Source: Acidobacteria bacterium RIFCSPLOWO2_12_FULL_66_21
GTDB taxonomy: Bacteria > Acidobacteriota > Vicinamibacteria > Vicinamibacterales > 2-12-FULL-66-21
DNA: 64,000 nt
Assembly (NCBI GenBank): GCA_001767455.1
Contig: MELC01000079.1
Span: 1 to 64,000, forward strand
Reading direction: 5' to 3'
Shown here: one piece after another, positions 79-11,656 of the stretch
Position numbering within the stretch: the stretch's first letter is position 1
Layout: each line of letters begins with the position of its first letter
The notes under the pieces: generated by a model
What the model was told of the DNA's origin: nothing
Databases searched by the model: none
The model's input: only the letters and a program-made list of their open reading frames with translations
Translations under genes and position numbers: made by a program

Positions 79-468
79 GTGCAAGCCGTGGCGTGGTATC
101 GCAAGGCGGCAGACCAGGGAGACGTAACCGCGCAGTTCAACCTCGGCGTCAGTTACGCCAACGGACGAGGCGTCCCGCAGGAATACGCGCAAGCCGTGAC
201 GTGGTATCGCAAGGCGGCAGAGCAGGGAGAGGCGGGGGCGCAGTTCAACCTGGGCATGATGTACTCAACTGGGAAAGGTGTTCCGCAGGACTATGTGGAA
301 GCCCACAAGTGGAGGAACCTCGCGGCTGCTCGGGCGACGGGTGAGGACCAGAAACGATACGCGGACGTGCGGGACTCACTTGCCAGGACGATGCCCCCCG
401 CTCAACTCGCGGAGGCGCAGAAGCGAGCCAGCGAGTGGATGGCGGCGTTTGAGAAGCGAAACAAGTAG
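79..468 (+). CDS. Sel1-repeat protein, 5'-truncated
   Basis: The 129-residue product carries Sel1-like TPR units with the usual pattern AQFNLG..Y..G.GVPQ(E/D)Y..A..WYRKAA: a partial unit at residues 1-17 and two fuller units to about residue 90. The C-terminal tail is charged and helical. Sel1 repeats mediate protein-protein contacts. The open frame begins directly after a TAA at 61-63, inside a repeat, so the first repeat and any signal peptide are missing. The GTG at 79 is only the first possible start and has no convincing Shine-Dalgarno sequence. It is probably a truncated remnant, although the remaining part is intact. Confidence 0.6.
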   Translation: MQAVAWYRKAADQGDVTAQFNLGVSYANGRGVPQEYAQAVTWYRKAAEQGEAGAQFNLGMMYSTGKGVPQDYVEAHKWRNLAAARATGEDQKRYADVRDSLARTMPPAQLAEAQKRASEWMAAFEKRNK

Positions 469-661
469 CGCACCGAGGGTGCCAGCCGTTTGCCACAACG
501 CGATCAGTGGGCTCCATACCCCGCCACCGTTTCACCCGGTCCCTGGATAAACTGACGGAAACAGTTCAGCATAGCGGACAGCTCGCCAGTCGTTTAATCA
601 CCATCTCGGTCAGAAAGCAGTGACCTTGACGATGCAGGTCAAACCGGCAGTAGAAGGAGCG

Positions 662-856
662 ATGATGCCGAACGAAATCACGAGCCGTATTGTCGTCGAT
701 CAACTGAAGGACGGAACGTTCAACGTCATGGAGCTGCCGCCAGACTACGACTACACAAAGGGACTGCCCGCGCGCGGGAGGTATTTCAAGACACGCGGTG
801 AGGCAATGAGAGAGTTCATGCGCTTGTTCCAGGCACACGATCCTGTTAAGGAGTGA
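662..856 (+). CDS. Small hypothetical protein (64 aa)
   Basis: I do not recognise a family. The start at 662 (ATG ATG) is chosen because GGAG lies about 7 nt upstream; the frame is open further upstream to 620, but that part lacks a ribosome site. The protein is short and soluble, with an aromatic/acidic middle (ELPPDYDYTKGLPARGRYFKT) and a C-terminal helix (EAMREFMRLFQAHDPVKE). It converges with the minus-strand operon ending at 861, with only 4 bp between the stops. Its place among mobile-element genes suggests an accessory role. No function can be assigned. Confidence 0.5.
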   Translation: MMPNEITSRIVVDQLKDGTFNVMELPPDYDYTKGLPARGRYFKTRGEAMREFMRLFQAHDPVKE

Positions 857-860
857 ACGG

Positions 861-1007
861 TCACTCCTCCTGCTGAATCGTAACGCGGACGCGGTCCTTG
901 TTTCCCGCTCGCGCCTTGGCGATGGCTCTCTTCACTTCCTCGATCTGAAGGTGGGCGACCTGCTCGGTCGCGTTGGTCGGAATCTCTACGACGGTTGGCT
1001 TGTTCAT
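861..1007 (-). CDS. Small hypothetical protein (48 aa), last gene of Rep operon
   Basis: The 48-codon frame runs from ATG (1007-1005) to TGA (863-861). Its ATG overlaps the stop of the upstream ribbon-helix-helix gene in an ATGA arrangement, which supports translation by coupling. The product starts MNKPTVVEIPTNATEQVAHL and continues as a lysine/arginine-rich helix ending RVRVTIQQEE. It has no cysteines, no membrane segment and no recognisable domain. It may be a small DNA-binding or antitoxin-like partner of the gene before it, but this is only suggested by position. Confidence 0.5.
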   Translation of the reverse strand: MNKPTVVEIPTNATEQVAHLQIEEVKRAIAKARAGNKDRVRVTIQQEE

Positions 1008-1138
1008 TGCTGCTGTCCATTTTCCTGTTCCAGGCGGCTGCGTAGGTGCTTGCGGAGGTAGTTGCTGACGGTGCGTTCCTCTCGGTCGGCAAGGTGTTCA
1101 AGCGCGACACGTTCATCGTGGGTGAGGCGCACGGACAC
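1004..1138 (-). CDS. Ribbon-helix-helix (Arc/CopG-like) small DNA-binding protein
   Basis: The 44-residue product begins MSVRLTHDERVALEHLADRE and continues ERTVSNYLRKHLRSRLEQEN. This is the layout of an RHH domain: an N-terminal strand (SVRL), helix A (THDERVALEHLADR), the turn before helix B with TVSNYLRKHL, and a short tail. RHH proteins bind DNA as dimers through the strand and often repress the operon that encodes them or act as mobilisation accessory factors. A GTG start at 1138 is needed because a TGA precedes it in frame. It lies 27 nt downstream of the 73-aa gene and overlaps the next start by 4 nt. Confidence 0.6.
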   Translation of the reverse strand: MSVRLTHDERVALEHLADREERTVSNYLRKHLRSRLEQENGQQQ

Positions 1139-1165
1139 GGTCTTCGGTCATCTTCTGCTGAGCAT

Positions 1166-1387
1166 TCACTTCCATCGGTCAAGATCTCCTTCGGTTTCAA
1201 GTTGGTGAAGTTGGTTGAGTGCGTGGTTGCTGAGCACGGCGGCAACGTGCTGGACGATGGGCGTCGTGTCGCTGGTGAGCAGGCATAGGTAGCGTTCAAG
1301 AGCGGCGAAGATCTCCAGTCGTTCCGCTTGTGCGACGGGGGGCAGTTCAAAGGCAAGCGGCTCGGGCTGTCGGGCGGGAGTGTTCAT
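1166..1387 (-). CDS. Hypothetical protein (73 aa) in Rep operon
   Basis: The ATG at 1387 overlaps the TGA of the Rep-like gene in an ATGA junction, and GGAGA lies about 9 nt upstream, so translation is well supported. The protein is mostly helical: a proline-rich start (NTPARQPEPLAFELPPVAQ), then AERLEIFAALERYLCLLTSD and VQHVAAVLSNHALNQLHQLE, ending acidic. I recognise no family. The gene order suggests a replication or partition accessory protein, but this is inference. Confidence 0.55.
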   Translation of the reverse strand: MNTPARQPEPLAFELPPVAQAERLEIFAALERYLCLLTSDTTPIVQHVAAVLSNHALNQLHQLETEGDLDRWK

Positions 1388-2037
1388 TGTGGCTGTTCTC
1401 CGTTCTCGGGCTGTGATGGCTCGGGTTGTGTGTGGATGTAGAGGATGGCGTTCCGCGAAAGCGTCTTGAAGTCGTCGGCGTTGTAGCGGATCGATCCCGC
1501 GAGGTTATTTATTCGTTCCAGGCGAGTGGTGCGGTAAACGAACGGCTCGGTGCGACAGGCGCGAGTGAGGACGTTCCGAAACGTGGGCAACGTCACGTCT
1601 GGCGGTAGAGCGAGCAGGATGTGAAGGTGTCGTCTCGTTCCCGTGTCGTGATGGCACACAAGTGCGGTTAGTCGTTGCGGAGCGTGCTTGCGCCTGGCGG
1701 CGTTTCCGAAGAGTTCCTTGTTCAGGCGGTTCATCAGGCGGATGGCAATGCGTCGGGCTTCGTTTTCGGTGAGATAGAGGTAGGGAGCGAACGCATTTGC
1801 TTGCTCCAACGTTCTCGGTGCTCGCTTGGCTCGGACACCGACATCCACATCGGTGTTGATCCGCACGATCTTCTGGCGAGTGATCGGGACGATGGCAGCG
1901 ATGGACGGCAGCGGTTCACAGGACAGTTCCTTCGCTGAATACTCCACTGTCGGGCGCTTGCTGGTGCGTAGCGTTCTTACTTCTGGGCTTTCGCGGCGCT
2001 GCTTCAACGTCAGTTCCGTTCCGCCCGTGACTGTCAC
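1384..2037 (-). CDS. HUH-motif Rep/relaxase-like protein
   Basis: The 217-residue product contains RRHLHILLALP at residues 135-145, a His-hydrophobic-His metal-binding motif (H137-L138-H139) as in HUH endonucleases that start rolling-circle replication or mobilisation. The motif sits on a strand after TALVCHHDTGT, as expected for the HUH core. Candidate catalytic tyrosines follow at Y185 (SIRYNADDF) and Y200 (AILYIHT). The basic N-terminal 70 residues show no domain. A GTG at 2037 is the start used here, but the frame stays open upstream into the recombinase piece, so the true N-terminus is uncertain. It leads an operon of four overlapping or closely spaced genes. IS200-type transposase is a less likely reading. 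Confidence 0.5.
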   Translation of the reverse strand: MTVTGGTELTLKQRRESPEVRTLRTSKRPTVEYSAKELSCEPLPSIAAIVPITRQKIVRINTDVDVGVRAKRAPRTLEQANAFAPYLYLTENEARRIAIRLMNRLNKELFGNAARRKHAPQRLTALVCHHDTGTRRHLHILLALPPDVTLPTFRNVLTRACRTEPFVYRTTRLERINNLAGSIRYNADDFKTLSRNAILYIHTQPEPSQPENGEQPQ

Positions 2038-2430
2038 AACACGCTGGCGGTGTTGAAGGAACGCGGGATCTCAACGTCCATCTGCGATCTTCCCGACGGT
2101 GCGGACGTGACGGGCAACGGCATCGCGGCGCTCCTTATCGGCATCATGGCGTCCGTTGCGGAGTGGGAGCGGGAACGCATCCGCGAGCGAACGGCAGATC
2201 AGAAACGTCTAGCGAAGGATCAGGGACGCTATCTCGGCGGCAAGATCCCATGGGACAAGAACGTCGTTAACGGGAAACTCGTTGACGACGACTCAAAGCG
2301 GACGGTTGTGCGGAAGTTGAGAGAGTGGCGAGGCGAAGGTGTTCCACTCCGCGACTGTGAAGCGCGGGTAAAGAAGCACTACAAAACGTCGTTGTCAGTG
2401 GACGCGATCAGGCGGCTCACGCAGGAGTAG
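1972..2430 (+). pseudogene. Serine recombinase, C-terminal fragment
   Basis: The frame opens after a TAG at 1969-1971. From about 2014 it matches the end of the resolvase catalytic domain: the RSARD..NTLAVLKERGI region and the long E-helix segment LLIGIMASVAEWERERIRER. It continues into the recombinase/zinc-ribbon region style (GRYLGGKIPWD...KLREWRGEGVPLRDCEARVK). The N-terminal part with the catalytic serine is absent, so the product cannot be an active recombinase. The first internal start would be GTG 2050. The upstream part overlaps the 5' end of the oppositely oriented Rep-like gene, which points to a deletion or insertion joint. Confidence 0.7.
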
Positions 2431-2631
2431 GCAACAGACGAAGCGAGAAGACGGGGACGGCGGAAACAGCAGACGCAAACAGGCTCATCGTCAGCGAGCT
2501 GAGCGACTGGGGCTGAAAATGCTCAACGATCTGTCGCTCGTTAGCATCCTCGCTATTTACAAAAGACAACTACAACGCTTGACGCCTTAGATACTGACCT
2601 TGCAACATCTCTCATTCTGCTAGCAAATAAG

Positions 2632-2715
2632 TGCCGGGGGTGGGAATCGGACCCACACGACCTTGCGGTCACGGGATTTTAAGTCCCGAGCGTCTGCCAG
2701 TTCCGCCACCCCGGC
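2632..2715 (-). tRNA. tRNA-Leu(UAA)
   Basis: On the minus strand the 7-bp acceptor arms GCCGGGG and CCCCGGC pair, followed by discriminator A. The anticodon stem CGGGA/TCCCG encloses the loop CTTAAAA, giving anticodon UAA. A long class-II variable arm (TGACCGCAAGGTCG region) and the T-loop GGTCCGATTCCC support tRNA-Leu. CCA is not encoded. The 3' end faces the mobile segment on the left. Confidence 0.95.
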
Positions 2716-9515: not shown

Positions 9516-11656
9516 AACGCTCCAAGCTGCGCGGCCAGGGCCTCCGGAGAGGTCGCGGGGGCCAGGCAGGTGAAATCGCGGCACACGTACGCGGTCGCGC
9601 GGCCCTCGCGTGGCAGCATCGCGGCGGCCATCGGCAACACGCGGTCCAGGGCCCCGTCTCCCGCGCGTGGGACGATCACCGCAAACGGCAGGTAATGCCG
9701 CGCAAGTTCCACCGCCAGCGCTCTCGTGCCGGCGGCGTCCTGACTTGCCGCGATCACGATCTGCGCGTACCCGGCGTGCCATGCCGACAGCGCGCACAAC
9801 ATCATCGGAACGGCCCGCGCCGCGTGACCGGCCCGCGGACCGTACCGGGCGAGCGTGCGTTCCGCACGATCGCCGGCGGCCGTGTCGCCAGCCAGATGCG
9901 CAAGCACCAGCGCGTTGAGCGCGGCCACGGAGCTCGCCGCCGGCTCGGCGCCATCGTAGTCTTCCTTCAACCGCAACAGCACGGCCGGATCCGCTCCCGT
10001 CGTGCTGAACCAGCCGCCTTCTTCAGCGTCCCAGAACAGTTCGTCCTGGCGGGCCTGCAGCGCGATCGCCCACTCCAGCCAGGCGGGATCCCCGTCGGCC
10101 TGGAACAGCTCCAGCAGTCCCCAGATGAGGCAGGCGTAGTCCTCGGCGTACGCCTCGATGGACGCGTCACCGTCACGATAGCGGCGCAGCAGACGCCGGG
10201 CGCCTCCATCCCAGAGTGCGGCGCGGACGAAGCCCGCGGCGGTTCGCGCGGCGTTCAGATAGGCCGCGGCATGCGCGCTCGCGGGCAGCACGCGCGCGGC
10301 ACGCGCGAAGGCGGCAATCATGAGACCGTTCCAGGCGGTCAGGACTTTGTCGTCGCGGTGCGGACGCGGACGCGCCGCGCGGACCTCGAACAGCCGCCCG
10401 CGGATCCGGCCAAGGGTGGCGATCACCTCCTCGACGGTTCGTCCCGTCGCCGCCGCGACTTCCTCGCTCGAGCGCGCGACATGGAGCAGGTTCCTGCCGG
10501 TGAACTCCCCCTGCGGATCGTGCGGCGCGTTGCCGGACGGCTCGATGCCGAAACGGGCCCGCGCGACGTCCGCGTCGGGACCCAGCACGGCCCCGATTTC
10601 CTCGTCGCTCCAGATGTAGAACGCCCCTTCCGACTTGTGCGCGCCGGGATCGCCGGCACGCTCCGGCGGAATGCTGTCGGCGTCTTCGGCCGAATGGAAT
10701 CCCCCGCCACGATCCGTCATCTCGCGGAGCACGTAGGCCAGCGTGTCCTCCGCGACCCTCGCATAGAAGTCCTCGCCCGTCGCCTGCGCCGCCTCGAGGT
10801 ACGCCAGCACCAGCTGCGCCTGGTCGTACAGCATCTTCTCGAAGTGCGGGACGCGCCACTCCGCATCGACGGAGTAGCGATGGAACCCGCCGCCGACGTG
10901 ATCGCGCATGCCGCCGAGCGCCATCGCCCGCAGCGTGTCGCGGACCATCACGAGCGGCGCCTCGACAGCCGGGCCCGCGGCCGCGCGCCGCGCGTGCTCG
11001 CGAAGCAGGAACAGAAGCTCGGAGGGACGCGGAAACTTCGGCGCCTCGCCGAAGCCGCCGCGGCGTCGATCGAACGCCATTTGAAACTGTTCGAGGGCCG
11101 TGTCGAGCGCGTCGAGGCCGGCGATTTCCGACTCGCCAGGCCCGCGCACGCCGGCGCCGGTCACGCCGCGGAGCCGCGCGAGCAGCTCGGTCGCCGCCTT
11201 TTCCACCTGCGGCCGATCCTCTTTCCAGACGCGCGCGATCTCGGTCAGGAGATCGGCAAATCCCGGCCGGCCCCACCGCGACGACGGCGGGAAATACGTG
11301 CCGCCGAAAAACGGCCGCAGATCGGGCGTGACGAACACCGTCATCGGCCATCCGCCCGCGCCCGTCGTCGCCTGCACGAACGACATGTACACCCGGTCGA
11401 CGTCGGGGCGCTCTTCACGGTCCACCTTGATGCTCACGAAGTCGTGGTTCAGCCGCGCCGCGATGTCCGGGTCCTCGAAGGACTCGTGCTCCATGACGTG
11501 GCACCAGTGGCACGTCGAATAGCCGATGGACAGGAAGATGGGCTTGTCTTCGCGCCGGGCCCGCTCGAAGGCGTCGTCGCCCCAGGGATACCAATCCACG
11601 GGATTGCCGGCGTGCTGGAGGAGGTACGGACTGCGCTCGCGGGCGAGACGGTTCAT
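9512..11656 (-). CDS. Thioredoxin-fold DUF255 protein (YyaL/SPATA20 family)
   Basis: The 714-residue length and order of features match the family. An N-terminal thioredoxin-like domain (residues 1-165) contains [18 protein letters not shown] and the CxxC motif in [17 protein letters not shown] long (alpha/alpha)6-barrel of glycosidase type follows, with [40 protein letters not shown] and [15 protein letters not shown]. The biochemical role of the family is unclear; a redox or cellobiose-epimerase-like fold has been suggested from structure. Start ATG 11656 gives the canonical [13 protein letters not shown] beginning. It is divergent from the ABC ATPase gene with 43 bp between them, and is followed by a coupled small gene. 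Confidence 0.9.

Follow-up and report, generated by a model that had tools for sequence, protein, structure and literature searches.

The four minus-strand reading frames near the left end of the window (the whole stretch of DNA analyzed, 64,000 nucleotides, with which a 119-kb contig of a 6.5-Mb assembly begins, the sequence to the left of position 1 being unseen) probably belong to the right-hand remnant of an element of about 5 kb that uses a tyrosine integrase to enter tRNA-Leu genes in this order of Acidobacteriota, and that includes a cassette of the rolling-circle type. Intact relatives in two other genomes have the same order of genes, an att duplication at tRNA-Leu and a conserved intergenic block, and comparison with them shows how the window copy was disabled by a deletion. 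The original prediction of a small plasmid integrated in the chromosome was right insofar as a plasmid-like mobile element lies at tRNA-Leu, but the copy at hand is a decayed one.

Through the comparison, a cassette that had no annotation is assigned to a defined mobile element, in a phylum whose mobile elements have been little studied. Small elements that integrate at tRNA genes and encode a protein of the rolling-circle type are already known (PMC5704250). What is new is the unclassified HUH-like protein, the additional serine recombinase and the splitting of a tRNA gene together with its apparent replacement.

Reading frames and other features of the window locus

The features of the locus, from the left end of the window, are as follows:

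1–78, no strand: end of a repeat sequence resembling an insertion element; breaks into the Sel1-repeat gene and ends the contig
79–468, plus strand: 5'-truncated gene for a Sel1-repeat protein (PF08238, E 4.9e-25)
620–856, plus strand: 78-aa frame, convergent with the cassette, in the position of the relatives' methyltransferase gene; no family match
861–1007, minus strand: 48-aa protein, 46–52% identical to its counterparts in both relatives; linked by ATGA to the RHH gene
1004–1138, minus strand: ribbon-helix-helix (RHH) protein with weak NikA-like, RelB and Arc-like matches; conserved in G245 and G443
1166–1387, minus strand: 73-aa frame, specific to the window, an insertion that separates the HUH gene from the RHH gene; searches gave no homologue
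1384–2016, minus strand: 5'-truncated gene for the HUH-like protein, homologous to the G245 and G443 proteins (69–72% identity)
2013–2016, no strand: deletion junction between the HUH gene and the serine-recombinase gene, with microhomology GAAC
2017–2430, plus strand: serine-recombinase remnant (fragment match 2050–2430), C-terminal half only, then a premature TAG
2558–2575, minus strand: TTGTAGTTGTCTTTTGTA, a possible integrase arm site, common to the end of the G245 element
2631–2715, minus strand: complete tRNA-Leu, anticodon TAA, which was the target of integration and forms the element's right end

All four of the predicted minus-strand frames are present: that of the HUH-like protein (reported as 1384–2037, with the HLH motif at H137-L138-H139 of that frame), the 73-aa frame, the RHH frame and the 48-aa frame, along with the ATGA overlaps that join the first pair (1384–1387) and the last pair (1004–1007). 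The contention that these are real genes fares well for the HUH, RHH and 48-aa frames, which recur in two genomes, but less well for the 73-aa frame, which occurs only in the window and lacks a counterpart in either relative. By codon position, the GC content of the frame is 0.73, 0.41 and 0.65, a coding-like pattern. Since it is absent from the relatives and an open frame of its length after an ATG would arise by chance about 14% of the time at the composition of the window, it is backed solely by that pattern and by the overlap.

In the RHH gene of the window, one extra base displaces the ancestral ATG (1149–1151) relative to G245 (ATGACCGAAGACC vs. ATGACGGAAACC), and an internal GTG could serve as a substitute start. 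The best Pfam match of the RHH protein is NikA-like (E 4.7e-5), which, like that to DUF6290 (E 1.7e-4), falls below the cut-off. An Arc-like repressor among the PHROGs matches with an E-value of 2.7e-6, there are weak matches to MobA and MbpA models, and RelB and Arc-like models do about as well as the NikA-like one. Except for the match of the HUH core to PF23343, considered below, no substantial match to the HUH-like, 73-aa or 48-aa protein of the window came from Pfam, PHROGs, NCBIfam or PADLOC.

The first 78 nucleotides of the window are identical to the ends of two other contigs (G000:C26:29427-29504 and G000:C1:15158-15235), each of which then differs. From these sequences, a repeated, insertion-like element appears both to have broken the assembly and to interrupt the Sel1-repeat gene, a gene that may be either cargo of the element or part of the chromosome. 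I rejected the repeat as a bridge to the remainder of the element, since both of the other contigs stop at the same end without extending it. Elsewhere in the window's own genome, near the start of another contig (G000:C91, L057 71–828), lies a relic of an integrase C-terminus and a methyltransferase N-terminus from the same type of element, which could be the missing half of the window element or a second decayed copy.

Intact relatives and integration at tRNA-Leu

Clear homologues of the HUH-like protein were found in two genomes from other genera of the same order, G245 (72% identity over residues 65–216) and G443 (69% identity over the C-terminal part, with the G245 protein as query). Both genes lie within intact elements of about 5.4 kb, flanked by tRNA-Leu att repeats, and both elements have the order tyrosine integrase and DNA methyltransferase (plus strand), HUH, RHH and small gene (minus strand, hence convergent with the first two), an intergenic region of about 0.5 kb, serine recombinase (plus strand) and tRNA-Leu. 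The integrase matches a PHROG integrase in G443 (E 8e-15) and, weakly, PF00589 in G245; the methyltransferase has an Mrr-like or inactive-nuclease-like tail; and the serine recombinases are intact, with a Resolvase domain. Gene order is therefore conserved outside the window, since both genomes hold three of the four genes in the same order, with only the 73-aa frame missing from the arrangement that the original prediction proposed to look for. The HUH and RHH genes of G245 share an ATGA at stop and start, and the end of its RHH gene overlaps the small gene; the latter overlap is kept in G443, where the HUH frame reads on through the RHH gene without stopping.

The dN/dS ratios (Nei-Gojobori) of 0.17–0.26 for the HUH core and 0.21–0.29 for the RHH protein argue that both have been under purifying selection. 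The 48-aa protein (0.45–0.80) is conserved but less constrained than these. Searches with the HUH-like protein through plasmid, phage, viral-contig and PDB sequences found no relative, nor was a relative of the G443 integrase found in viral contigs. An Arthrobacter phage match (E 0.1) was set aside, as it has no HxH motif, and weak matches in G199, G009, G235, G214, G192, G317 and G308 (E 0.001–0.007, some with stop codons) were not taken as relatives.

A duplicated att derived from the tRNA bounds the element in both relatives. In G245, a second copy of the 3' half of tRNA-Leu(CAA), beginning at the anticodon stem, lies about 5.4 kb away. The chromosomal tRNA-Leu(UAG) of G443 is broken at the anticodon loop into a 5' half (L028 5433–5471) and a 3' half (about 10932–10992) that have TGGACTTAGGA in common and that agree at nearly every base with the intact tRNA-Leu(UAG) of G245. 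The window shows only the right end, as a tRNA-Leu and an 18-base motif shared with the right end of the G245 element, the candidate arm site listed above. Its contig ends before the position of the integrase, and because that end of the element lies beyond the contig start, the membership of the window copy rests on its right half.

The G443 element carries within it a complete tRNA-Leu(UAG) (L028 10787–10871). A pattern search of G443 for sites resembling tRNA-Leu(UAG) returned only two, the split gene and the element-borne gene, and ARAGORN recognized tRNA-Leu(UAG) only in the latter. These observations lead me to put forward, tentatively, a more specific reading, in which these are tiny integrative elements whose HUH initiators form a new family and which split tRNA-Leu at the anticodon loop and supply a replacement tRNA. 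If so, the host of the G443 element would depend on it for tRNA-Leu(UAG), since the chromosomal gene is interrupted and the only other pattern match is the element-borne gene, and the case would illustrate the apparent replacement of a destroyed tRNA by the very element that destroyed it.

In G269 and G470, also genomes of this order, related integrases are found next to tRNA-Leu. The G269 element (L054 5100–10342), beside tRNA-Leu(gag), carries what by reading are a ParA-like gene and a Rep-like gene, suggesting an exchange of replication modules. Just outside the left att of the G245 element is a second tyrosine integrase, of phage type (L010 2388–3470, plus strand), suggesting tandem integration next to another element.

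Deletion in the window copy and the intergenic block

On the minus strand at 2013–2016, recombinase-like sequence ending in gcggaacgGAAC is joined directly to HUH-like sequence beginning with GAACtgacgttgaag. As compared to G443, about 0.9 kb is missing (as judged from one assembly), comprising the start of the HUH gene, the intergenic region and the stretch that encodes the N-terminal part of the serine recombinase. The reported HUH frame is open, but the GTG at 2037 is not the native start of the gene, because positions 2017–2037 belong to the serine-recombinase gene, read in antisense, and meet the HUH gene at GAAC. The window lacks the first 28 native HUH codons (31 by G245 numbering), and what is left of the recombinase aligns from about residue 90 of 261, without the catalytic N-terminal part and with an in-frame TAG. 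From this alignment, a deletion appears to have fused the HUH gene to an antisense serine-recombinase remnant, removing the starts of both genes and, with them, a 68-bp block. Given the deletion junction, the TAG in the recombinase and the RHH ATG thrown out of frame, the window copy is very probably defective and most likely inactive. In the window the cassette is very probably not a working operon, as the deletion took away its native start along with the region upstream and the hairpin block that is conserved in the relatives.

The 68-bp block, just upstream of the serine recombinase, does not differ at a single base between G245 and G443 (100% identity), in contrast to the remainder of the intergenic region, where divergence is far greater. 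As single-stranded DNA it is predicted to form three hairpins, with z at −4.9 for one strand and −4.2 for the other. Of the 193 genomes of the class that were searched, only G443 and G245 contain it; it was not found in the window's genome, nor was an exact 28-base piece of it found in viral contigs. The block might serve as nicking origin, as recombinase site or as control region, and its position beside the recombinase start does not decide between these roles. A hairpin for nicking had been anticipated upstream of 2037, but none is expected in the window, because that region and the hairpin block are deleted; the first hairpin of the block was not found there. The intact relatives offer a minimal testable system, consisting of the HUH-like protein, the RHH protein and the 68-bp block with its three hairpins.

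Nature of the HUH-like protein

The HLH motif and its surroundings are invariant in the three homologues (window, G245 and G443) and constitute their most conserved part, GTRRHLHILLALPPDV; two tyrosines downstream of the motif are invariant as well. PF23343 (REP_ORF2-G2P) is the only Pfam family that matches all three HUH cores, and it does so in register, from the conserved YLT through HLH. The matches are below the family's cut-off of 27.8 bits: the G245 protein scores 15.1 bits and the G443 core 13.1 bits, and the best E-value among the three cores is 0.0091. A first AF2 model of the protein had a pLDDT of 49, and a Foldseek search with it was uninformative. A model of the core (pLDDT 69) has the order alpha-beta-beta-alpha-beta, compatible with HUH enzymes but not specific to them, and the matches listed for it by Foldseek and VIA-align contain generic alpha/beta folds and no HUH enzyme.

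The evidence for the HUH identity of the protein is thus suggestive only, and because the match is below the cut-off and the fold searches are non-specific, I do not file the protein as a member of PF23343. Proteins of the same order, in G470:C386 and G403:C62, score better against that family, though the G470 protein has no detectable relation to the HUH-like family beyond the motif. These small proteins (L060 1375–1929, plus strand, and L061 1405–1935, minus strand) have motifs like those of HUH Rep proteins (FVTLTFDP, WHAH/WHVH) and lie near the cut-off.

The HUH-like protein probably works like a rolling-circle initiator. It would nick a site in the intergenic region and so start rolling-circle replication of the excised circle or, as a non-canonical relaxase, its transfer, with the RHH protein regulating it or assisting at the nick site and the serine recombinase resolving multimers. 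The original prediction of a replication and copy-control core is plausible, though the match to PF23343, a family of replication-associated proteins, is below the cut-off.

Alternatively, the HUH-like protein might be chiefly a relaxase. The element would then be an integrative mobilizable element, with the RHH protein as a NikA-like accessory at an intergenic oriT. Such elements commonly have relaxases that are related to rolling-circle initiators (PMC5704250), which counts in favor of this account, as do the NikA-like best Pfam match of the RHH protein, albeit under the cut-off, and its weak matches to MobA and MbpA. I consider it unlikely all the same. The HUH-like protein has no match among MOB relaxase families up to an E-value of 10 (HMMER filters drop most matches above about 0.1), the RHH protein matches RelB and Arc-like models about equally well, and the two invariant tyrosines, the candidate nucleophiles, come after HLH, as in replication initiators, while the two intact proteins share no conserved tyrosine in the N-terminal stretch that precedes APYxYLT.

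It is just as doubtful that HLH is a coincidence and that the protein, instead of being an HUH endonuclease, has for example a DNA-binding or regulatory role in the element. The sub-threshold match to PF23343 and the fold searches, which give only common ferredoxin-like arrangements, speak for this, yet the motif region is the most conserved part of the protein and the PF23343 alignment is in register with HLH.

Y1 transposases have HUH and YIxxQ motifs, and the sequence HLHILLALPPDV together with the invariant ILYIHTQ recalls these, as a lead only. Capture of a Y1-type transposase (IS200/IS605 or REP-associated) by the element is nonetheless improbable, as PF01797 (Y1_Tnp) gave no match at the same HMMER filter sensitivity and the gene lies in a conserved multi-gene cassette with RHH, not alone between hairpin ends. 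A single-stranded phage (inovirus or microvirus), also suggested by the original prediction, has very little to commend it beyond a small HUH protein, compact genes and the phage-type replication proteins that PF23343, by name, includes, since the main ORFs examined in the 5.4-kb relatives amount to an integrase, a methyltransferase, the HUH cassette and a serine recombinase, with no structural or other phage gene (coat, assembly or pilot) recognized, and no relative turned up in the phage and viral collections searched.

Elements of this type, as seen intact in the relatives, resemble the integrative and mobilizable elements (PMC5704250) in their tyrosine integrase, tRNA site, RCR-like protein and cargo of the restriction-modification type. 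They differ from them in that no relaxase family is recognized (the HUH protein being too divergent to classify), that the target in the relatives is cut at the anticodon loop and that a second, serine recombinase is present. The pSAM2-like integrative elements of actinomycetes likewise combine tRNA integration with a rolling-circle Rep; unlike them, the present elements are only about 5.4 kb, belong to another phylum and have no recognized transfer gene or Rep of the pSAM2 family. Tycheposons, too, are bordered by a tRNA gene and carry a tyrosine recombinase (PMC10872708), but they are cargo carriers of 4–200 kb, in contrast to the elements of about 5.4 kb in G245 and G443 with their HUH/RHH cassette.

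In an element of G199 with a related integrase, a gene for a protein with an HYH motif is followed by an Arc-like RHH gene (L050 4433–5605, minus strand). The protein has no detectable sequence similarity to the HUH-like family, so the pair may be compared to the HUH cassette by position only, as an analogy. The integrase of G199 is 62% identical to that of G443.
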